Shown here one piece after another: positions 30,968-38,945 of a stretch of DNA of 64,000 nt. A program made the position numbers and the translations under genes. The notes under the pieces are model-generated. The model ran no database searches and had not been told where the DNA came from. It saw nothing but the letters and a program-made list of their open reading frames with translations. How positions within the stretch are numbered: the first letter of the stretch is position 1; the number at the start of each line of letters is the position of its first letter. Origin of the DNA: an uncultured Bacteroidales bacterium (GTDB taxonomy: Bacteria; Bacteroidota; Bacteroidia; Bacteroidales; Bacteroidaceae); assembly GCA_902801475.1 (NCBI GenBank), contig CADCIO010000012.1, forward strand, positions 1 to 64,000. Reading direction: 5' to 3'.

Positions 30968-32634
30968 TTTCCTAACAGAGTTTTGGCATTGTCGAGGGCT
31001 GCTTGTGTGAGTTGCTCACCACTGAGCATACAAGCAATTTCCTCAATGCGCTGTTCATCGTTCAATGGGATGATATGGGTCAAGGTGGCATCATCGGTAT
31101 CTTCCTTATATACCTTATAATGATGGGCACCTAAGGCAGCAATCTGTGGCAGGTGGGTGATGGAGATGACTTGACGACCTCGCTCGCCCATCTCTTGCAT
31201 CATTCGAGCCATCTTTTCCGCGATGGAACCGCTCACTCCTGTGTCGATTTCATCGAAGATGATGGTAGGGAGTTTGACGGCACCAGCGATAAGCGCCTTA
31301 AGAGACAGCATCACACGTGCGATTTCACCGCCAGAAGCGATTTGACTGACAGGCTTGGGTTCACCGCTCTTATTGGCGTTGAAAAGGAACTGCACCTGGT
31401 CGTAGCCAGTGGATGAAAGTTCCGATGGAATCGCCAAAATGGAGCACTTGAACTGCACGTTGGGCATCCCCAAAGGCAAGAGGCGCTCTTCCATCTCTTT
31501 TTCCACCCTCTTGGCTGTAGTTGTACGTGATTGGGAGAGCTTTTTCGCCAAAACCAAAGCCTTCTCCTTCTGTGCGTCGACTTGTTGATGAAGTTGTTCG
31601 ATGAAATCGTCAGAATTAGTGATTCTCAAGAGCTTTTCTTCCATCTCCTTCTGGAGTGTCAGCAATTCTTCAACACTTTCCACCCCATGTTTCTTCTGCA
31701 AGGTGTAAATAGTATTCAGACGCTCGTTCACCTGTTCCAGACGTTGTGGATTGTACTCCACATCCTCTGCCTGATTCTCCAATTCATTGGCGACATCCTT
31801 TAATTCGATGTAGCAGGAGTCAAGGCGTTCAACCCATTCCTCAGCAGACGAATACACCGATGAAATCGACTGAATCTCTGAAATGCTCTGTTTGAGCAAA
31901 CCCAGCACATCAGCACCCTCATTGGAGGATTGCAGGTGATTGGCTGCCGCATAGAGTGACGATTTGATGTCTTCAGCGTGTTCAAGGGTTTCGGCTTCCT
32001 CTTCCAGCTCCTCTTGTTCCCCTTCCTTCAAGTTTGCATCTGCCAGCTGATTGACTTGGAAACGCAGGTAGTCCTCATCCTCCTTACTGGCTTCCGCCTC
32101 TTCCAATGCCTCTTCCAACTGTTTGGAGAGACGGCGATAGGACTGATATTCGGTCTTGTAGGCATCGAGCGTTTCTTGATGGTTGGCAACAATGTCGAGC
32201 ACGTTCAGTTGGAAGTCCTCCTTGCCCAACAACAGGTTCTTGTGTTGGGAATGTACGTCGAGGAGCTGTTCACCCAATTCTTTCAGTTGCGTCAGAGAGG
32301 CAGGGGTGTCGTTGATAAAGGCACGAGACTTACCCGCCGAGGTGAGTTCACGACGGATGATGCACTCTGCACCATCGAAATCGAGGTCATTCTCCTGAAA
32401 GAACGGTTCCAAAGCGTCTTGGGAGAGGTCGAACGTGGCTTCCACCACACAGCGCTTGGCGTCTGCCTTGATGGAACGGGAGTCGGCACGTTGTCCCAGC
32501 AGCAAGCCTATGGCACCAATGATGATGGATTTACCAGCACCCGTCTCACCCGTGATGACAGAGAAACCTGTGTGGAAATCCATATCCAGATGCTCAATCA
32601 GTGCGTAATTCTCTATGTGCAGATGACGTATCAT
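30964..32634 (-). CDS. recN: DNA repair protein RecN
   Basis: 556 aa, the SMC-like ATPase acting in double-strand-break repair in the cytoplasm. Walker A GETGAGKS is at about residues 29-36. A long coiled coil (about 155-365, LEEALEEAEASKEDED) is broken by a short central hairpin. Near the C-terminus are the signature SGGEIARVMLSLKAL and Walker B TIIFDEIDTGVSG. Length equals that of other RecN proteins. Start and stop both overlap neighbours by 4 nt (ATGA), so it is co-translated with the DUF4835 and pseudoprotease genes. Damage regulation is not evident from the sequence. Confidence 0.95.
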   Translation of the reverse strand: MIRHLHIENYALIEHLDMDFHTGFSVITGETGAGKSIIIGAIGLLLGQRADSRSIKADAKRCVVEATFDLSQDALEPFFQENDLDFDGAECIIRRELTSAGKSRAFINDTPASLTQLKELGEQLLDVHSQHKNLLLGKEDFQLNVLDIVANHQETLDAYKTEYQSYRRLSKQLEEALEEAEASKEDEDYLRFQVNQLADANLKEGEQEELEEEAETLEHAEDIKSSLYAAANHLQSSNEGADVLGLLKQSISEIQSISSVYSSAEEWVERLDSCYIELKDVANELENQAEDVEYNPQRLEQVNERLNTIYTLQKKHGVESVEELLTLQKEMEEKLLRITNSDDFIEQLHQQVDAQKEKALVLAKKLSQSRTTTAKRVEKEMEERLLPLGMPNVQFKCSILAIPSELSSTGYDQVQFLFNANKSGEPKPVSQIASGGEIARVMLSLKALIAGAVKLPTIIFDEIDTGVSGSIAEKMARMMQEMGERGRQVISITHLPQIAALGAHHYKVYKEDTDDATLTHIIPLNDEQRIEEIACMLSGEQLTQAALDNAKTLLGK

Positions 32635-33557
32635 TTCTTAATCTTGTTCCAATAAGTGTTCTGGCTGGCATTGATGTTGGACACGATGTCATAAACCCCC
32701 TGACGCTCCTTCTCAGTCCCGTGTCCTGAATAGATATTGACGATTTCATCGCGCTTGAAATCTGTGAAAATCTGGGGGAGCTGCGAGATGGGCTTGTTGG
32801 TGTGTGCCTCCTTCAGCATCTCCAACGCCTCCGTGATGGCCGTACGCCCACGATCGGCATTCTGCGCCATTTCATCGAGCCCTTGACGATGATATTTGTA
32901 CTGCAACTGACGGAATGGTTCCATCGAAGAGTCCATATAATCGTTGATGATGGCATGACGGTTCTTCGAGTCATCGAAAGCTTTCCATCCTGGCGACGAC
33001 ATCGTTTGGGCATTGTTCACGATGCTTTCCACCACGTGCAAGACATCCGTTCCTCCCATCGGGGAGAAAGTGTCCAAATCCAAGCCGATGAACAGATAAG
33101 CGTAATAGGCCAGCATCGCCGTCAGGTTGCTGTCCATGTTGTTGAGGTTGAAGTCGAGGGCGTCCTGCCGGTTATAAGAAAAGGAGAATTCCGTATCACG
33201 CATGGAAAAGACGGTGGTGCTATAACCCGAATTATAGACAGGACGAGTGACTTGAAAGAGCAGTTCGCAAGAAAACATGTCATTCTTCTCATCGTACTTC
33301 TTGACGGTGATGTTCAGATTGCAATCAACACGTTCGGCTTTCTGATACTGCAATTCCGTCCACGTACGGTTGTTCATGAACTCAGTGATGGCAGTCTCCA
33401 ACGCTTCGAAAACTTCTGTGTTGGTACCTTGTACTTGAGAGTGAACCACCTTCACGGTACAGTTCAGTTCCTGCCCTTCCATCCAAGAGGAGGAAACACC
33501 CCCTAAAACCAAAAATCCAAGGGCTATCAGTCTGTAAAAATATTGACGTATAAGCAT
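32631..33557 (-). CDS. DUF4835 family exported protein
   Basis: 308 aa with an N-terminal hydrophobic export segment (YRLIALGFLVLGGVSS). ELNCTVKVVHSQVQGTNTEV and the strand-rich region to SMRDTEFSFSYN match DUF4835, a Bacteroidota-specific family usually placed between coaBC and recN. Some annotations link the family to type IX secretion (PorD), which I cannot confirm from sequence alone. Here coaBC is separated from it by an inserted plus-strand block (33779-37682). The stop overlaps the recN start. It is probably periplasmic or outer-membrane associated. Confidence 0.8.
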   Translation of the reverse strand: MLIRQYFYRLIALGFLVLGGVSSSWMEGQELNCTVKVVHSQVQGTNTEVFEALETAITEFMNNRTWTELQYQKAERVDCNLNITVKKYDEKNDMFSCELLFQVTRPVYNSGYSTTVFSMRDTEFSFSYNRQDALDFNLNNMDSNLTAMLAYYAYLFIGLDLDTFSPMGGTDVLHVVESIVNNAQTMSSPGWKAFDDSKNRHAIINDYMDSSMEPFRQLQYKYHRQGLDEMAQNADRGRTAITEALEMLKEAHTNKPISQLPQIFTDFKRDEIVNIYSGHGTEKERQGVYDIVSNINASQNTYWNKIKK

Positions 33558-33778: not shown

Positions 33779-33997
33779 ATGAAGAATAAAATGGTTGCAG
33801 GTATTCTTGGAATCCTGGTTGGTGGTTTCGGTATCCACAAGTTCTACATGGAGAACATTATGCCAGGTGTGGTTTATCTCCTTCTCTGCTGGACTGGTAT
33901 TCCAAGCATCCTTGGTCTTATCGAGGGTATCATCTATCTGATGGACACTGACGAGCAGTTCCAGGCACGCGTTGAGGCCAAGAAGTTCTTTATGTAA
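33779..33997 (+). CDS. TM2 domain membrane protein
   Basis: 72 aa from ATG 33779 (MKNKMVAGILGILVGGFGIH). A frame open from 33701 is rejected because the added part is low in hydrophobic character and unlike the family. Two transmembrane helices joined by a short loop with GGFGIHKFYM and PGVVYLLLCWTGIPSILG are the TM2 signature. In other organisms TM2 domains occur in small membrane proteins of unknown role. It is followed by a terminator-like hairpin (34058-34095) and then by the caspase/thioredoxin genes, so it may be transcribed both alone and with them. Confidence 0.88.
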   Translation: MKNKMVAGILGILVGGFGIHKFYMENIMPGVVYLLLCWTGIPSILGLIEGIIYLMDTDEQFQARVEAKKFFM

Positions 33998-34057
33998 TCC
34001 AGATTCTTGCGAATCTCATCTCAGAAATAACGAACAAGGCTATCTGCTTACAATAGG

Positions 34058-34095
34058 AAGTTTGTTTGCTGAAGGGCAAGCAAACTTTCTTTATT
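34058..34095 (+). terminator. Terminator/attenuator between TM2 and the first caspase gene
   Basis: AAGTTTGTTTGC (34058-34069) pairs with GCAAGCAAACTT (34076-34087) with one G-U pair, followed by TCTTTATTT. No new promoter is seen before the next ATG at 34119, so the downstream genes may depend on read-through. Confidence 0.65.
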
Positions 34096-34118
34096 TCGGA
34101 CAATCACTTGATCACTCT

Positions 34119-35498
34119 ATGCGAAGAATACATCTCTTTCTCATGTTGTTGTGCCTTACCCTATCTTCACAGGCACAGACTTTCTACGAAGTCAACTACA
34201 CGGATGACGGGGTAGAGTACCTCGGACTGATGATTTATTATAGTGATGAAAACTGCAAGATGCGTCTCGTCACACCAGAATCACTCGAAGCAGATATGGT
34301 CTTCGAGTCGCAGTACGTGAATATGGTCGAAGAGAAAAGTGATGAGGACGGTGTGGGCATCATGGCCTATTATCCCTTAGAAAAGAGATTCCCCATTTTC
34401 CTGTGGTATTGGGAGGAAGATGATGCCAGCGATATCAGCGAAAAGCCGTTTGTCACCTATGACATCAAGAAAACCAAGAGCTATATCGAAGCAGAGTATT
34501 TCCACGAAATCCCTTTAGAGGAAATGGACGAGGAATACATCTCCCAGTTCTACGGAGAGGACGAACCCGAATACAAGATGCTGCTCAATGGCATCCTGCT
34601 TGTAAAGAATCAAAACTTGCCGCACCAAGACATTGAGGTGACGGTAGATGACCCTATATTTACCGACATCGAGACGGATGATGTCAACGAAGGGGAGAAC
34701 ATCGCTCCTGGAGAAGGCGGAAACACCTTAGGTATAGGAAATGCCGATGAATCCACCCTGCATCTGATTGTCGTTGCCAACACCAACGTGAGTGACATTG
34801 GCTCTGCTTGTGCCAAAGATATGGTCAATCTCAACAGTGAGTTTGGAGGCATCGCAAAAGTGTTGGGCATGAGATATGACCTGCAAGCCATCAGGGGAAA
34901 GAATTATAGCAAAGAAAACTTATCGAAGCTGATGCGCAACTTCCAGCCCAACAGCGATGACGTGGTCGTCTTCGTCTATACAGGACACGGTTTCCGTTTT
35001 GATGACCAACAGGACTACTACCCCAATATGGATCTCTGCCCCACCAGTTATGACGATCCCACGAAGAATTATGTGGCAGTCAGCGATGTGTATAAGGAAC
35101 TTGCTGCGAAAGGCGCACGACTCAACCTCGTGTTCAGCGACTGTTGCAATAATGAAATAGGTGAGACAACACCCATCATCAACACCAGCACGCTGTTCTC
35201 TCGTTCCAACAACAACTTCGATGTCAAGAAACTGGAAAGGCTATTTGTAGATGCCAGCGGCAGTCTAATTGCCACGGCGGCAAGTCCCGGTGAGATGTCT
35301 TGGTGTGGGGTGAATGGAGGATTCTTCACCCTGAGTCTCTTGGAGAGTCTACGTGCCCAGATCAGTGTGCTTTCGACAGGTCTTCCCGACTGGGAGACAT
35401 TGGTGGCTGATGCCCTAACGGCTGCCACCGCGAAATCGCAGAACAACGTCAACACAAAGGCGCAACATGGAATGAAAATGATTCGAATCAAACAATAA
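34119..35498 (+). CDS. Exported caspase-fold (C14/metacaspase-like) protein 1
   Basis: 459 aa from ATG 34119, where the signal peptide RRIHLFLMLLCLTLSSQA begins. The N-terminal 180 residues are a strand-rich acidic region without recognised family. An acidic linker (EGENIAPGEGGN) leads to a caspase-like p20 domain. VVFVYTGHGFRFDD carries the catalytic His290 and LVFSDCCNN the Cys pair 342/343, of which Cys343 aligns with the DxC nucleophile. A p10-like end (LIATAASPGEMSW) follows. Bacterial orthocaspases cleave after Arg/Lys; specificity here is unknown. Export points to the periplasm or surface. It is 13 nt from the thioredoxin gene. Confidence 0.85.
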   Translation: MRRIHLFLMLLCLTLSSQAQTFYEVNYTDDGVEYLGLMIYYSDENCKMRLVTPESLEADMVFESQYVNMVEEKSDEDGVGIMAYYPLEKRFPIFLWYWEEDDASDISEKPFVTYDIKKTKSYIEAEYFHEIPLEEMDEEYISQFYGEDEPEYKMLLNGILLVKNQNLPHQDIEVTVDDPIFTDIETDDVNEGENIAPGEGGNTLGIGNADESTLHLIVVANTNVSDIGSACAKDMVNLNSEFGGIAKVLGMRYDLQAIRGKNYSKENLSKLMRNFQPNSDDVVVFVYTGHGFRFDDQQDYYPNMDLCPTSYDDPTKNYVAVSDVYKELAAKGARLNLVFSDCCNNEIGETTPIINTSTLFSRSNNNFDVKKLERLFVDASGSLIATAASPGEMSWCGVNGGFFTLSLLESLRAQISVLSTGLPDWETLVADALTAATAKSQNNVNTKAQHGMKMIRIKQ

Positions 35499-35510
35499 AA
35501 CAATCATAAT

Positions 35511-36086
35511 ATGAAACTAATCATCAAAATTGCTTTGGGCATCATCTTAGCCCTTTTGATTCTTGTAGGTATCATCACTTGCGTGGGCAGTTGTCTCGAC
35601 GACGATGACGAAGTGCAAACCGAAGAATACGAGGAAGAACGTACAGACGACTATTACGAAGACGCTGACGAAGAAGACAGCGCAGACGGCACGAACATTG
35701 CACCTGGAGAAGAAGTCGTTTCCACCTCATCCAGTTGGGGTGATGGCACTTGCCGCTCTATCAATGCCAAGCAGTTCTATCAATTGGTGGCGTCCAAGAA
35801 ACAGTATGACACCTACATCGGCGAAGGACCTTGTGTCGTTGATTTCTGGGCTGACTGGTGCGGCTACTGCAAGCTCATTGACCCTTATATGAAGGCGCTG
35901 GCAAAGAAGTATAAGGGGAAGGTGCAGTTCTATAAGGTTAATGCCGATGAGAATGAGGAACTGTTGCAGCTCTATGGCATTGATGGGCTTCCCACTTTGT
36001 TCTTCTGTCATGGAGAGGACATCAAGACGACCAGCGGTGCCTCTTCACAAGAAGAATACGAGGAATTGGTACGAGAACTGTTATAG
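35511..36086 (+). CDS. Membrane-anchored thioredoxin-like protein
   Basis: 191 aa. An uncleaved-looking N-terminal helix (IIKIALGIILALLILVGIIT) is followed by an acidic tether (about 30-58, DDDDEVQTEEYEEERTDDYY). A thioredoxin domain follows with the active site WCGYC (Cys117, Cys120) and the cis-Pro loop GLPTLFF. The tether ends in GTNIAPGEEV, matching the linker NIAPGE of the preceding caspase, which suggests they work in one place or complex. As a periplasmic thiol oxidoreductase it could keep the caspase cysteines reduced or handle disulfides. That link is an inference from operon position. Confidence 0.85.
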   Translation: MKLIIKIALGIILALLILVGIITCVGSCLDDDDEVQTEEYEEERTDDYYEDADEEDSADGTNIAPGEEVVSTSSSWGDGTCRSINAKQFYQLVASKKQYDTYIGEGPCVVDFWADWCGYCKLIDPYMKALAKKYKGKVQFYKVNADENEELLQLYGIDGLPTLFFCHGEDIKTTSGASSQEEYEELVRELL

Positions 36087-36098
36087 GTTTAATCAGTT

Positions 36099-37073
36099 AT
36101 GAGGAAGTTTGCTTTCACATTATTTATTATTATAGGAGTCACGATGTTCGCCCAAGAGACGGACACCCTGTCGGCGTTTTCCGATGCGGAGCAGGAGGCT
36201 GAATACCAGTCTTTCTATGCTACCGATGAGGAAGATGACGAAGAGGTGATGGGCAAAACCATTGTGCAGGGAGGAAGCACGGGGAAAGTCAATACACGAC
36301 CAGTCAGCACTCCCAATCAGGAACCATGTAAGATGTGGGCGATTCTCGTGGCAGACACCTACGATGAGAACATTGGCGAAGATGATACTTATGATAATCT
36401 TGCACTCAACAAGGAGCTGAAAGCTATTGCACAATGTTTGGGTATCGAGATCAGCATCACGAACATCACAGCTAACAGAGCCTACAACAAACACAATCTC
36501 GCCAATGCCATCACCAATCTTCGTCCAGCCAAGAACGACATCGTCTTCTTCTGCTTCAATGGGCACGGTTTTCGATGGGATGACCAGAAGGACATGTATC
36601 CGAACATCTGCATGATTGGTCCCAATGATGATGTGTATGGGAATTATGTGGCAACGACGGACATCTACAATGCCATCAAGAACAAAGGTGCGCGCCTGAG
36701 CGTCGTCATCACCGATTGCTGCAATTCCAAATACGGAGAGCGCGGCCCCAGACAGAAAGAGAACACGCTCTTCAGCCGCAGCAACACACGGGTCAGCAAA
36801 AAGCGTATGAGCGAACTCTTCTTGGGCACCAAGGGGATGATTCTCGCTACTGCTGCCAAACCTGGTGAGTATGCGTGGTCTTTCGAGGGGACGGGCAGCG
36901 CCTTTACGCAATCATTCATCTCCCAACTCCGCAAGGAAGTCAGTGCCACTCACACGGAGAGTCCCAGTTGGCAACGTCTCCTCGACAACGCCATCGAATC
37001 TGCACGAAAGAAGACCACTTCCTGCGAGAATACGCAGCACGGCATGCGTTATATGAGCATTTCTAAGCAATAA
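36099..37073 (+). CDS. Exported caspase-fold (C14/metacaspase-like) protein 2
   Basis: 324 aa with signal peptide RKFAFTLFIIIGVTMFAQ. A short acidic segment (ATDEEDDEEV) precedes the caspase domain with CFNGHGFRWDD (His156) and VVITDCCNSKYGE (Cys207/208, Cys208 the probable nucleophile). ILATAAKPGEYAWSFEG closes the small-subunit part. It is a shorter paralogue of the protein at 34119, sharing GHGFRxDDQxDxYPN and the NTLFSRSN loop, but lacks that protein's 180-residue N-terminal region. It begins 12 nt after the thioredoxin gene. Both His/Cys dyads are intact, so both proteins may be active. Confidence 0.87.
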   Translation: MRKFAFTLFIIIGVTMFAQETDTLSAFSDAEQEAEYQSFYATDEEDDEEVMGKTIVQGGSTGKVNTRPVSTPNQEPCKMWAILVADTYDENIGEDDTYDNLALNKELKAIAQCLGIEISITNITANRAYNKHNLANAITNLRPAKNDIVFFCFNGHGFRWDDQKDMYPNICMIGPNDDVYGNYVATTDIYNAIKNKGARLSVVITDCCNSKYGERGPRQKENTLFSRSNTRVSKKRMSELFLGTKGMILATAAKPGEYAWSFEGTGSAFTQSFISQLRKEVSATHTESPSWQRLLDNAIESARKKTTSCENTQHGMRYMSISKQ

Positions 37074-37094
37074 CAACCTTTTATTACAAGCAAT

Positions 37095-37682
37095 ATGGAC
37101 AAGTTTTTTTCAAACAACACATTCGTCATCGACGAGAAGATCGCTGCATTCAAACTCTCCAATGCCTATAAGGTCTATAATGGAGAGGGACAGGAAATTG
37201 GCGCCATTCAGGAGCGCAAACCATTCACGTACATTCTGCTCGAATTCGCTTTGTCCAAGAGGATGGTGCCCTTTGAGCTCGACATTCTGAACGTTGACGG
37301 CAAGTGCATCGCACAACTCAAGCGCGGTCTGACGCTCTTTATGTCGAAGGTGCAGATTCTTAATGAGGCTGGTGCACCCATCGGTTCGTTCAAGCAAAAG
37401 TTCACGCTGCTGAAGCCGAAGTTCACGTTGGTAGACAATCTCGGACAGGAAATCGCTACCATCAAGGGCGACTGGAAGGCTTGGAACTTCGAGATCACGG
37501 ACGCTGCTGGTCAGAAAATTGGTACGATTGACAAGAAATGGAACGGTATGGCAAAGGAACTCTTTACCACAGCCGACAAATACGCTGTCAACATCGACCC
37601 AAGTGTGACCGATGAGAACACGCGCATTGCTGTGGCGTCGGTTGCCGCAGCGATCGATATGATTTTGAAAGAGGGAAATTAA
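37095..37682 (+). CDS. LURP-one/phospholipid-scramblase-like protein
   Basis: 195 aa without signal peptide. Repeated strands such as YKVYNGEGQEIGAI, VQILNEAGAPIGSFKQKFTL and FEITDAAGQKIGTIDKKWNG, then AKELFTTADKYAVNID, match the LURP-one-related (DUF567) beta-barrel fold. That fold is related to Tubby and scramblase C-terminal domains. Prokaryotic members are of unknown function; eukaryotic relatives bind phosphoinositides or move lipids. It is the last gene of the caspase block, 21 nt after caspase 2, and converges on coaBC. Confidence 0.82.
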   Translation: MDKFFSNNTFVIDEKIAAFKLSNAYKVYNGEGQEIGAIQERKPFTYILLEFALSKRMVPFELDILNVDGKCIAQLKRGLTLFMSKVQILNEAGAPIGSFKQKFTLLKPKFTLVDNLGQEIATIKGDWKAWNFEITDAAGQKIGTIDKKWNGMAKELFTTADKYAVNIDPSVTDENTRIAVASVAAAIDMILKEGN

Positions 37683-37715: not shown

Positions 37716-38945
37716 TTAAAGACGTTCCAGCTCGTCCACAATATCTTTGGCTACCTCTTCTTTGGTCTTGAGGGGGTAGTCCTTTTTGTTGGCAGCCGTG
37801 ATGATGGTGATTTTATTGGTGTCGGTACGGAAACCTGCGCCTTCATCCTTGAGGCTGTTGAGCACGATGAAATCGAAGTTTTTCTTCTTCAGTTTGGCTT
37901 GTGCATTCGACTCTTCATCATTCGTTTCGAGGGCAAATCCCACGAGGGTCTGCCCTTGCTTCTTCATTTGACCTAATGAGGCTGCAATGTCAGGATTGGG
38001 TTTCAAACGGATAATCATATCATCGCCCGTTCTCTTGATCTTCTGCTCTGCAGTCGTCTCTGGGGCGAAATCAGCGACAGCAGCACACAGAATGGCCGAA
38101 TCCATCGATGGATATAACTCTTTGCAGGCCACAAACATCTCTTGGGCACTCTCCACATCGATACGATGAATGTTAGGAAACTTTGTCTGCATCAATGCAG
38201 AAACAGGACCGCAAACCAGTTCAACCTGAGCACCACGACGAGCACATTCATTTGCCAAAGCGAAACCCATCTTTCCAGAGGAATAATTGCCGATGAAACG
38301 CACGGGGTCTATCTTTTCATAGGTGGGACCAGCCGTGATGAGCACCTTCTTGCCCTTCATGCTGTCTTGCTGAGTATTCTCCTTCGCACAATTCTGTTGA
38401 GAGAAGAACTGCTCCAGACAAGCCACGATGTTCTCTGGCTCCTCCATTCGTCCTTTGCCCTCCAGTTTCGATGCCAAGAAGCCTGTGCCAGGCTCGATAA
38501 TATGGTTGCCATACGACTGCAAAGTCTTCAGATTCTGCTGCGTGGAAGGATGTGCATACATGTCCAAATCCATTGCCGGAGCAATGAACACAGGCGCCTT
38601 CATCGAAAGATATGTGGTGATGAGCATGTTGTCAGCCACACCGTTTGCCATCTTACCGATAGTAGAAGCCGTAGCTGGAGCTATCAGCATCACGTCTGCC
38701 CACAGACCGAGATCCACGTGAGAGTGCCACGTGCCATCGCGCTGAGCAAAGAATTCGCTGATGACGGGCTTGCTCGTTAGTGCTGAAAGGGTGATGGGGG
38801 TAATGAACTCCTTACCGGCAGGGGTGATGACCACCTGCACCTCCGCACCTTTCTTGATGAGCTGACGGATGATGAGGCATGACTTATAGGCGGCGATGCT
38901 GCCCGTGATGCCAAGCACAATTTTCTTTCCTTGTAGAGAATCCAT
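37716..38945 (-). CDS. coaBC: Bifunctional phosphopantothenoylcysteine decarboxylase / phosphopantothenate-cysteine ligase
   Basis: 409 aa, cytosolic, catalysing two steps of coenzyme A synthesis. The N-terminal flavoprotein CoaC has GSIAAYK, the catalytic His in WHSHVDLGLWADV and PAMDLDMY, with Asp where Escherichia coli has the Asn of PAMN. The CoaB domain begins near residue 200 (KKVLITAGPTYEKIDPVRFI) and includes GNYSSGKMGFALA. It lies 24 nt after dnaN on the same strand, probably one transcript. Its 3' end faces the inserted caspase block, not the DUF4835 gene that I would expect next. Confidence 0.95.
   Translation of the reverse strand: MDSLQGKKIVLGITGSIAAYKSCLIIRQLIKKGAEVQVVITPAGKEFITPITLSALTSKPVISEFFAQRDGTWHSHVDLGLWADVMLIAPATASTIGKMANGVADNMLITTYLSMKAPVFIAPAMDLDMYAHPSTQQNLKTLQSYGNHIIEPGTGFLASKLEGKGRMEEPENIVACLEQFFSQQNCAKENTQQDSMKGKKVLITAGPTYEKIDPVRFIGNYSSGKMGFALANECARRGAQVELVCGPVSALMQTKFPNIHRIDVESAQEMFVACKELYPSMDSAILCAAVADFAPETTAEQKIKRTGDDMIIRLKPNPDIAASLGQMKKQGQTLVGFALETNDEESNAQAKLKKKNFDFIVLNSLKDEGAGFRTDTNKITIITAANKKDYPLKTKEEVAKDIVDELERL

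Follow-up and report, generated by a model that had tools for sequence, protein, structure and literature searches.

Which genes belong together, and what would they do, when a predicted membrane thioredoxin is encoded between two caspase-fold proteases? This question is raised by a 64,000-nt window from an uncultured Bacteroidales gut bacterium of rumen type, the whole stretch of DNA that was analyzed. Five genes lie there on the plus strand in the order TM2, CASP1, TRX, CASP2 and SCR, and the flanking genes coaBC, porD and recN are all on the minus strand. The initial annotation regarded the five genes as a single envelope system, possibly for stress, defence or self-killing. The comparison of related genomes revealed that CASP1-TRX-CASP2 (34119-37073, plus strand), designated here as the cassette, is the real unit, and that TM2 and SCR are older neighbours or bystanders. 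No description of a CASP1-TRX-CASP2 gene cluster was found in the literature searched.

Gene content was compared among 45 genomes of the window's genus. CASP2 orthologues were found in 13 of them and anchored TRX in 12; both are present in 11, TRX only in one, CASP2 only in two, and neither in 31 (Fisher p 9e-8, a value that ignores shared descent). TRX orthologues are limited to the cassette genomes and G018, while the other thioredoxin matches are short proteins matching in the domain only. Among 399 genomes of the family, no extra CASP2 orthologue of comparable score was found beyond the genus, the nearest proteins being caspases of a paralogous type. Random association, which the initial annotation had set against its proposal, does not describe the caspase-thioredoxin-caspase link (11 genomes versus 3), but the grouping of all five genes did not stand.

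All five genes are present in G000, G006, G009, G016, G025, G026, G066, G005 and G022, and also in G012, whose contig stops inside CASP1; in G005 and G022 the second flank is a gene other than porD. TM2 and SCR occupy the site without caspases in five genomes (G002, G003, G013, G014, and G036), and TM2-TRX-SCR, again without caspases, in G018 only. The cassette was found at other positions, without TM2 or SCR, in G030, G061, and Horse_feces95; in the last, CASP1 has a divergent orientation. G033 has CASP1-CASP2 with a lipoprotein gene and no TRX, and in G021 the two caspases sit on separate contigs. The relatives that carry the cassette in the named collection are metagenome-assembled Bacteroidaceae or Prevotellaceae, including Candidatus Minthosoma, and were recovered from horse faeces, yak omasum, and the rumen of sheep and water buffalo.

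The phylogenies separate the cassette from its neighbours as well. In the tree of CASP1, TRX and CASP2, G066 pairs with G005 (98/97), whereas in the trees of the flanks G066 pairs with G000 (93/99, 83/82) and G005 with G022 (97/95). The flank pairings were rejected when forced onto the cassette data (approximately unbiased (AU) test, p 5e-47 and 9e-12), as was the cassette pairing forced onto coaBC-dnaN (AU p 2e-6). The tested clades were chosen after a quick tree, and these p-values are accordingly optimistic, with large margins of 105 to 302 log units. Because the cassette tree conflicts with the trees of the flanking genes, the cassette has been exchanged between species as one block within an otherwise vertical locus. 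The SCR tree is consistent with the flanks, and SCR and TM2 are separable from the cassette; thus, a scramblase function need not enter the mechanism. The dN/dS ratio (nonsynonymous to synonymous substitution rates) is 0.04-0.13 across the gene set, which indicates strong purifying selection and excludes chance open reading frames (ORFs). A foreign origin judged by composition was rejected, as the GC content of the block is ordinary (0.476, against 0.484 for the window). A plasmid or phage origin of the cassette was rejected too: no phage or viral relatives were found, and plasmid caspases are only distant, the best being from Bernardetia, without a thioredoxin alongside.

CASP1 (34119..35498, plus strand; 459 aa; PF00656, 56 bits) consists of an N-terminal domain and a C14 domain, and CASP2 (36099..37073, plus strand; 324 aa; PF00656, 51 bits) is the second caspase-fold protease. 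Both belong to the C14 family by their caspase fold and His-Cys dyad. The dyads are intact, as initially annotated: H290/C343 in CASP1 and H156/C208 in CASP2 are invariant in 12 homologues each. An invariant Asp-Cys precedes each catalytic Cys and forms a DCC motif (D341-C342-C343 and D206-C207-C208), and an invariant Arg is found exactly 19 residues past the catalytic Cys in both proteins (R362 in CASP1, R227 in CASP2). Further conserved cysteines are C46, C231, C342 and C396 in CASP1, and C152, C207 and C309 in CASP2. The N-terminus of CASP1 reads as a cleavable signal peptide (MRRIHLFLMLLCLTLSSQAQ), as does that of CASP2 by eye, and both proteases appear to be exported.

In Arg/Lys-specific relatives such as metacaspases and MALT1, the acidic S1 residue occupies the position of the Asp at Cys-2. 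Since D341 and D206 match this residue, CASP1 and CASP2 would be expected to prefer a basic residue (Arg/Lys) at P1. The fold search rests on the CASP2 model, as the CASP1 model (mean predicted local distance difference test score (pLDDT) 52) is too poor; the best PDB matches by Foldseek are MALT1, an Arg-specific paracaspase (E 5e-8), and caspase-9 (E 2e-7). The CASP2 model shows, at moderate confidence, two helices and a strand beyond the p20 part. R362 and R227 are located in or beside low-confidence loops of the models (343-365 in CASP1 and 210-230 in CASP2), at the place where caspases are cleaved to separate the large from the small subunit, and are candidate sites for activation by cleavage.

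TRX (35511..36086, plus strand; 191 aa) is a thioredoxin by its fold match (PF00085, 87 bits) and by the CxxC motif, which is WCGYC at residues 116-120, in agreement with the initial annotation; against the NCBIfam thioredoxin equivalog it scores 84.4 bits, short of the 96.8-bit cut-off. A long hydrophobic stretch at the N-terminus is followed by an acidic linker, and TRX is preferably read as a membrane-anchored protein. A surface lipoprotein was considered for TRX of the window, where CVGSC is followed by LDDDDE, which we take to resemble a Bacteroides export signal. This reading was not adopted: orthologues do not conserve the second Cys, and the residue at -1 of C24 is Thr. G021 (L074:8163-9287) encodes a fusion in which the anchor and acidic linker of the TRX type lead straight into a CASP2 catalytic domain, and the thioredoxin domain is absent. 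This fusion suggests that CASP2 shares the compartment of TRX. The genome encodes one protein of the DsbD transmembrane family, which is a plausible electron source for TRX, and redox control of the caspases is likewise plausible.

A short peptide is common to CASP1 and TRX. Both have NIAPGE right ahead of the catalytic domain: in CASP1 as NIAPGEGGNTL (34698..34729, plus strand) before the caspase domain, and in TRX (35694..35711, plus strand) before the thioredoxin domain. The motif was first spotted by eye in the window, and the test is therefore limited to where it occurs elsewhere. When 16 genomes were scanned with a degenerate DNA pattern for N[IV]APGE, 14 matches were obtained. Twelve are at cassette loci, in CASP1, TRX, or the lipoprotein beside CASP2 (G033), and the other two are in one orthologous porin-like gene. 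Five cassette-free genomes (G003, G010, G011, G024, and G036) gave no match, nor did the reversed control. The extended pattern N-x-x-PGE-x-x-NTL was found in 10 of the 45 genomes, always in CASP1, with no match of its reversed control. Codons differ among the copies; thus, it is the peptide that is conserved. In Horse_feces95 and G061, a version of the peptide is shifted to the extreme C-terminus of CASP1 (DNVAPGEGGNTLDL and NIAPSSGGSTLDL), and the G033 lipoprotein adjoining the caspases ends with NNVAPGE. The peptide might be a docking or tethering element, which is a guess. In a genome of another genus (G154, L170:1030-2805), a C10 peptidase is encoded directly after a caspase gene; its tail contains N[IV]xPGE twice, and the second copy forms the very C-terminus (DDDNILPGE).

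The site between coaBC and porD shows how the neighbours are arranged. TM2 (33779..33997, plus strand; PF05154, 57 bits) is a 72-aa TM2-domain membrane protein outside the cassette. SCR (37095..37682, plus strand; 195 aa) is related to scramblase/LURP-one proteins through its Scramblase/LOR domain (PF03803, 81 bits), and it tracks the vertical history of the site. One flank is coaBC (37716..38945, minus strand; TIGR00521, 447 bits), and the other is the DUF4835 gene (32631..33557, minus strand), which NCBIfam identifies as the type IX secretion gene porD (NF052317, 368 bits; cut-off 170). The ORFs and Pfam matches bear out the positions of the five genes in the initial annotation, including the gaps of 12-21 nt after CASP1 (CASP1-TRX 12 nt, TRX-CASP2 12 nt, and CASP2-SCR 21 nt), and the location of the block between coaBC and DUF4835/recN on the opposite strand.

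TM2 and CASP1 are 121 nt apart, and in this gap, immediately 5' of CASP1, a terminator-like hairpin is followed by a U-rich tail (34055..34090, plus strand). It has 16 pairs and -20.6 kcal/mol, and is followed by TTATTTCGGA. A strong U-tailed hairpin lies 20-50 nt 5' of CASP1 in most five-gene loci, and a similar one precedes TRX in G018. The pairing is retained in 95% of pair cells among relatives, and covariation showed no excess over shuffles. The distance of only 20-50 nt leaves little space for a promoter 3' of the hairpin, which might attenuate transcription from TM2 into the cassette or terminate it incompletely. An operon of five genes was rejected on gene content, the conflict of trees, and this hairpin. 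A small lipoprotein gene (MKKILFA..SFASCNGC..) is present between TM2 and the hairpin in L066, L067, L068, L069, L076, L081, and L192, and is missing in the corresponding interval of the window (33998-34118).

The initial annotation also suspected an insertion, and relative to the deep branches it was right: coaBC and porD-recN are contiguous in ten genomes. These are deeper-branch genomes in a four-gene tree (G001, G004, G008, G015, G020, G027, G028, G029, G030, and G033). The same adjacency is seen in G010 and G011, which are placed among genomes with extra genes at the site. Thus, the coaBC-porD site acquired genes inside the genus and may have lost them again. In G032 (L079:10047-11569), two unrelated plus-strand genes fill the junction, which indicates that it takes differing inserts.

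Several known systems and loci resemble the cassette in part. Orthocaspases are prokaryotic C14 peptidases without a p10 domain, such as MaOC1 of Microcystis (PMC5756287). They have in common with CASP1 and CASP2 the caspase p20 fold, the His-Cys dyad and the Asp at Cys-2, whereas the cassette, known here from sequence, has a predicted exported pair, the N-terminal domain of CASP1, the DCC motif, and an adjacent anchored thioredoxin. TrxP of Bacteroides fragilis is likewise an exported thioredoxin of an anaerobic member of Bacteroidota with an unsettled role, but it is in an operon with doxDA rather than with caspases (PMC6158253). In Nodularia spumigena, the gene of metacaspase M33 is near a DsbA-like thioredoxin gene (PMC4933709); this locus differs in being cyanobacterial, in its thioredoxin family, and in having a single metacaspase.

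Another comparison is a paralogous locus of these same genomes, Peptidase_C10-caspase-Lcl_C (L085:9005-12760 in G000:C23, L086-L094, and L166), in which an exported caspase lies between a C10 peptidase and an Lcl_C-type protein. This caspase has an N-terminal domain as in CASP1 (42-46% identity) and is flanked by another exported cysteine protease, but the locus has no thioredoxin and the linker peptide N[IV]APGE is absent from the caspase; the C10 peptidase encoded alongside is of the streptopain type and has an I69 inhibitor domain. The C10 protein ends with NDFYGN or DDFYGN in most genomes, and DFYG is also present in a G033 lipoprotein and in the linker of G018 TRX. C-terminal DFYGN was rejected as well: its matches in the genus are all C10 peptidases by the paralogous caspase, and the remaining matches in the family look like chance. 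In another genus (L171:1507-7370 and L172:8633-15110), a caspase with a lipoprotein-type N-terminus is near a C10 peptidase with two dockerin-like repeats at its C-terminus, and small lipoproteins are encoded between or beside these genes. A further caspase of G000, with a classical DACHAG motif (L095:7306-9548, G000:C7), lies beside a weakly matching sigma-70-like protein and a DUF3379-like one.

The function that we tentatively prefer, at slightly less than even confidence, is an envelope proteolysis unit: a pair of Arg/Lys-type caspase zymogens, activated at Arg, reduced by TRX through DsbD, and linked by the peptide. CASP1 and CASP2 would leave the cytoplasm as caspase-fold zymogens with a basic P1 preference, and self- or cross-cleavage past R362 and R227 would activate them. 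TRX, with an inner-membrane anchor and its domain outside, would hold the catalytic or neighbouring DCC cysteines reduced, with electrons supplied by the DsbD-type protein, and caspase activity would thereby track the redox state of the envelope. N[IV]APGE probably helps to keep CASP1 and TRX, or a common partner, together. Several observations weigh against this reading. The models of both structures are weak, with a mean pLDDT of 52 for CASP1 and 66 for CASP2, and CASP2 of the window is without N[IV]APGE. Related caspases without an adjacent thioredoxin (L097 and L098) also have DCC; thus, DCC alone implies no thioredoxin switch. Caspases are found without TRX in G021 and G033, and TRX at the site without caspases in G018; neither, therefore, strictly requires the other. 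A bolder version, a redox-gated complex of paired orthocaspases in the envelope that is assembled via N[IV]xPGE marking its components, a mark common to the tails of other exported cysteine proteases, is doubtful.

A different role for TRX is the alternative that survives best, and it is a possibility to be taken seriously, if a minority one. TRX would be a dedicated folding catalyst, a disulfide isomerase or reductase, for cysteine-rich exported caspases that act as constitutive envelope or extracellular proteases, and would not regulate how active they are. The conserved extra cysteines of each caspase are consistent with this role, as is the complementation of an Escherichia coli dsbC mutant by exported TrxP of B. 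fragilis (PMC6158253); the caspases without TRX in G021 and G033 argue against it.

It is unlikely that an exported caspase pair and a thioredoxin are merely co-located at a variable site, selected separately and with no mutual action. TRX alone in G018, the caspases without TRX in G021 and G033, and the changing combinations of TM2, SCR and the small lipoprotein gene at the site would fit such co-location. Against it, the order or adjacency recurs in unrelated contexts (the coaBC site, G030, G061, and Horse_feces95), the three genes were exchanged as a single block, and a rare peptide motif occurs in both CASP1 and TRX.

An envelope system of all five genes including a lipid-scramblase step, as first proposed, is very improbable. 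The five-gene order is kept in ten genomes of two clades, counting G012, but the TM2-SCR pair occurs without caspases and the cassette without TM2 or SCR, a terminator-like hairpin stands between TM2 and CASP1, and the history of SCR differs from that of the cassette. Caspase-fold proteases operate in known defence systems, and the cassette shows a patchy distribution and horizontal exchange; nevertheless, an anti-phage or programmed-death module triggered by envelope perturbation, as the initial annotation also suggested, is the least probable reading, as PADLOC matches are weak and partial (the best 15 bits, E 0.0027, about 85 residues, with no partner match), phage or viral relatives were not found, the unit is without a sensor or pore partner, the N-termini read as export signals, and the neighbours are housekeeping genes.

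Most discussion of caspase relatives in bacteria concerns cytoplasmic proteases for death or defence, whereas the pair described here appears to be exported. With a membrane thioredoxin in the same moving block, thiol-controlled caspase activity outside the cytoplasm becomes a hypothesis that can be tested cheaply, and the shared peptide is a handle to find partners.

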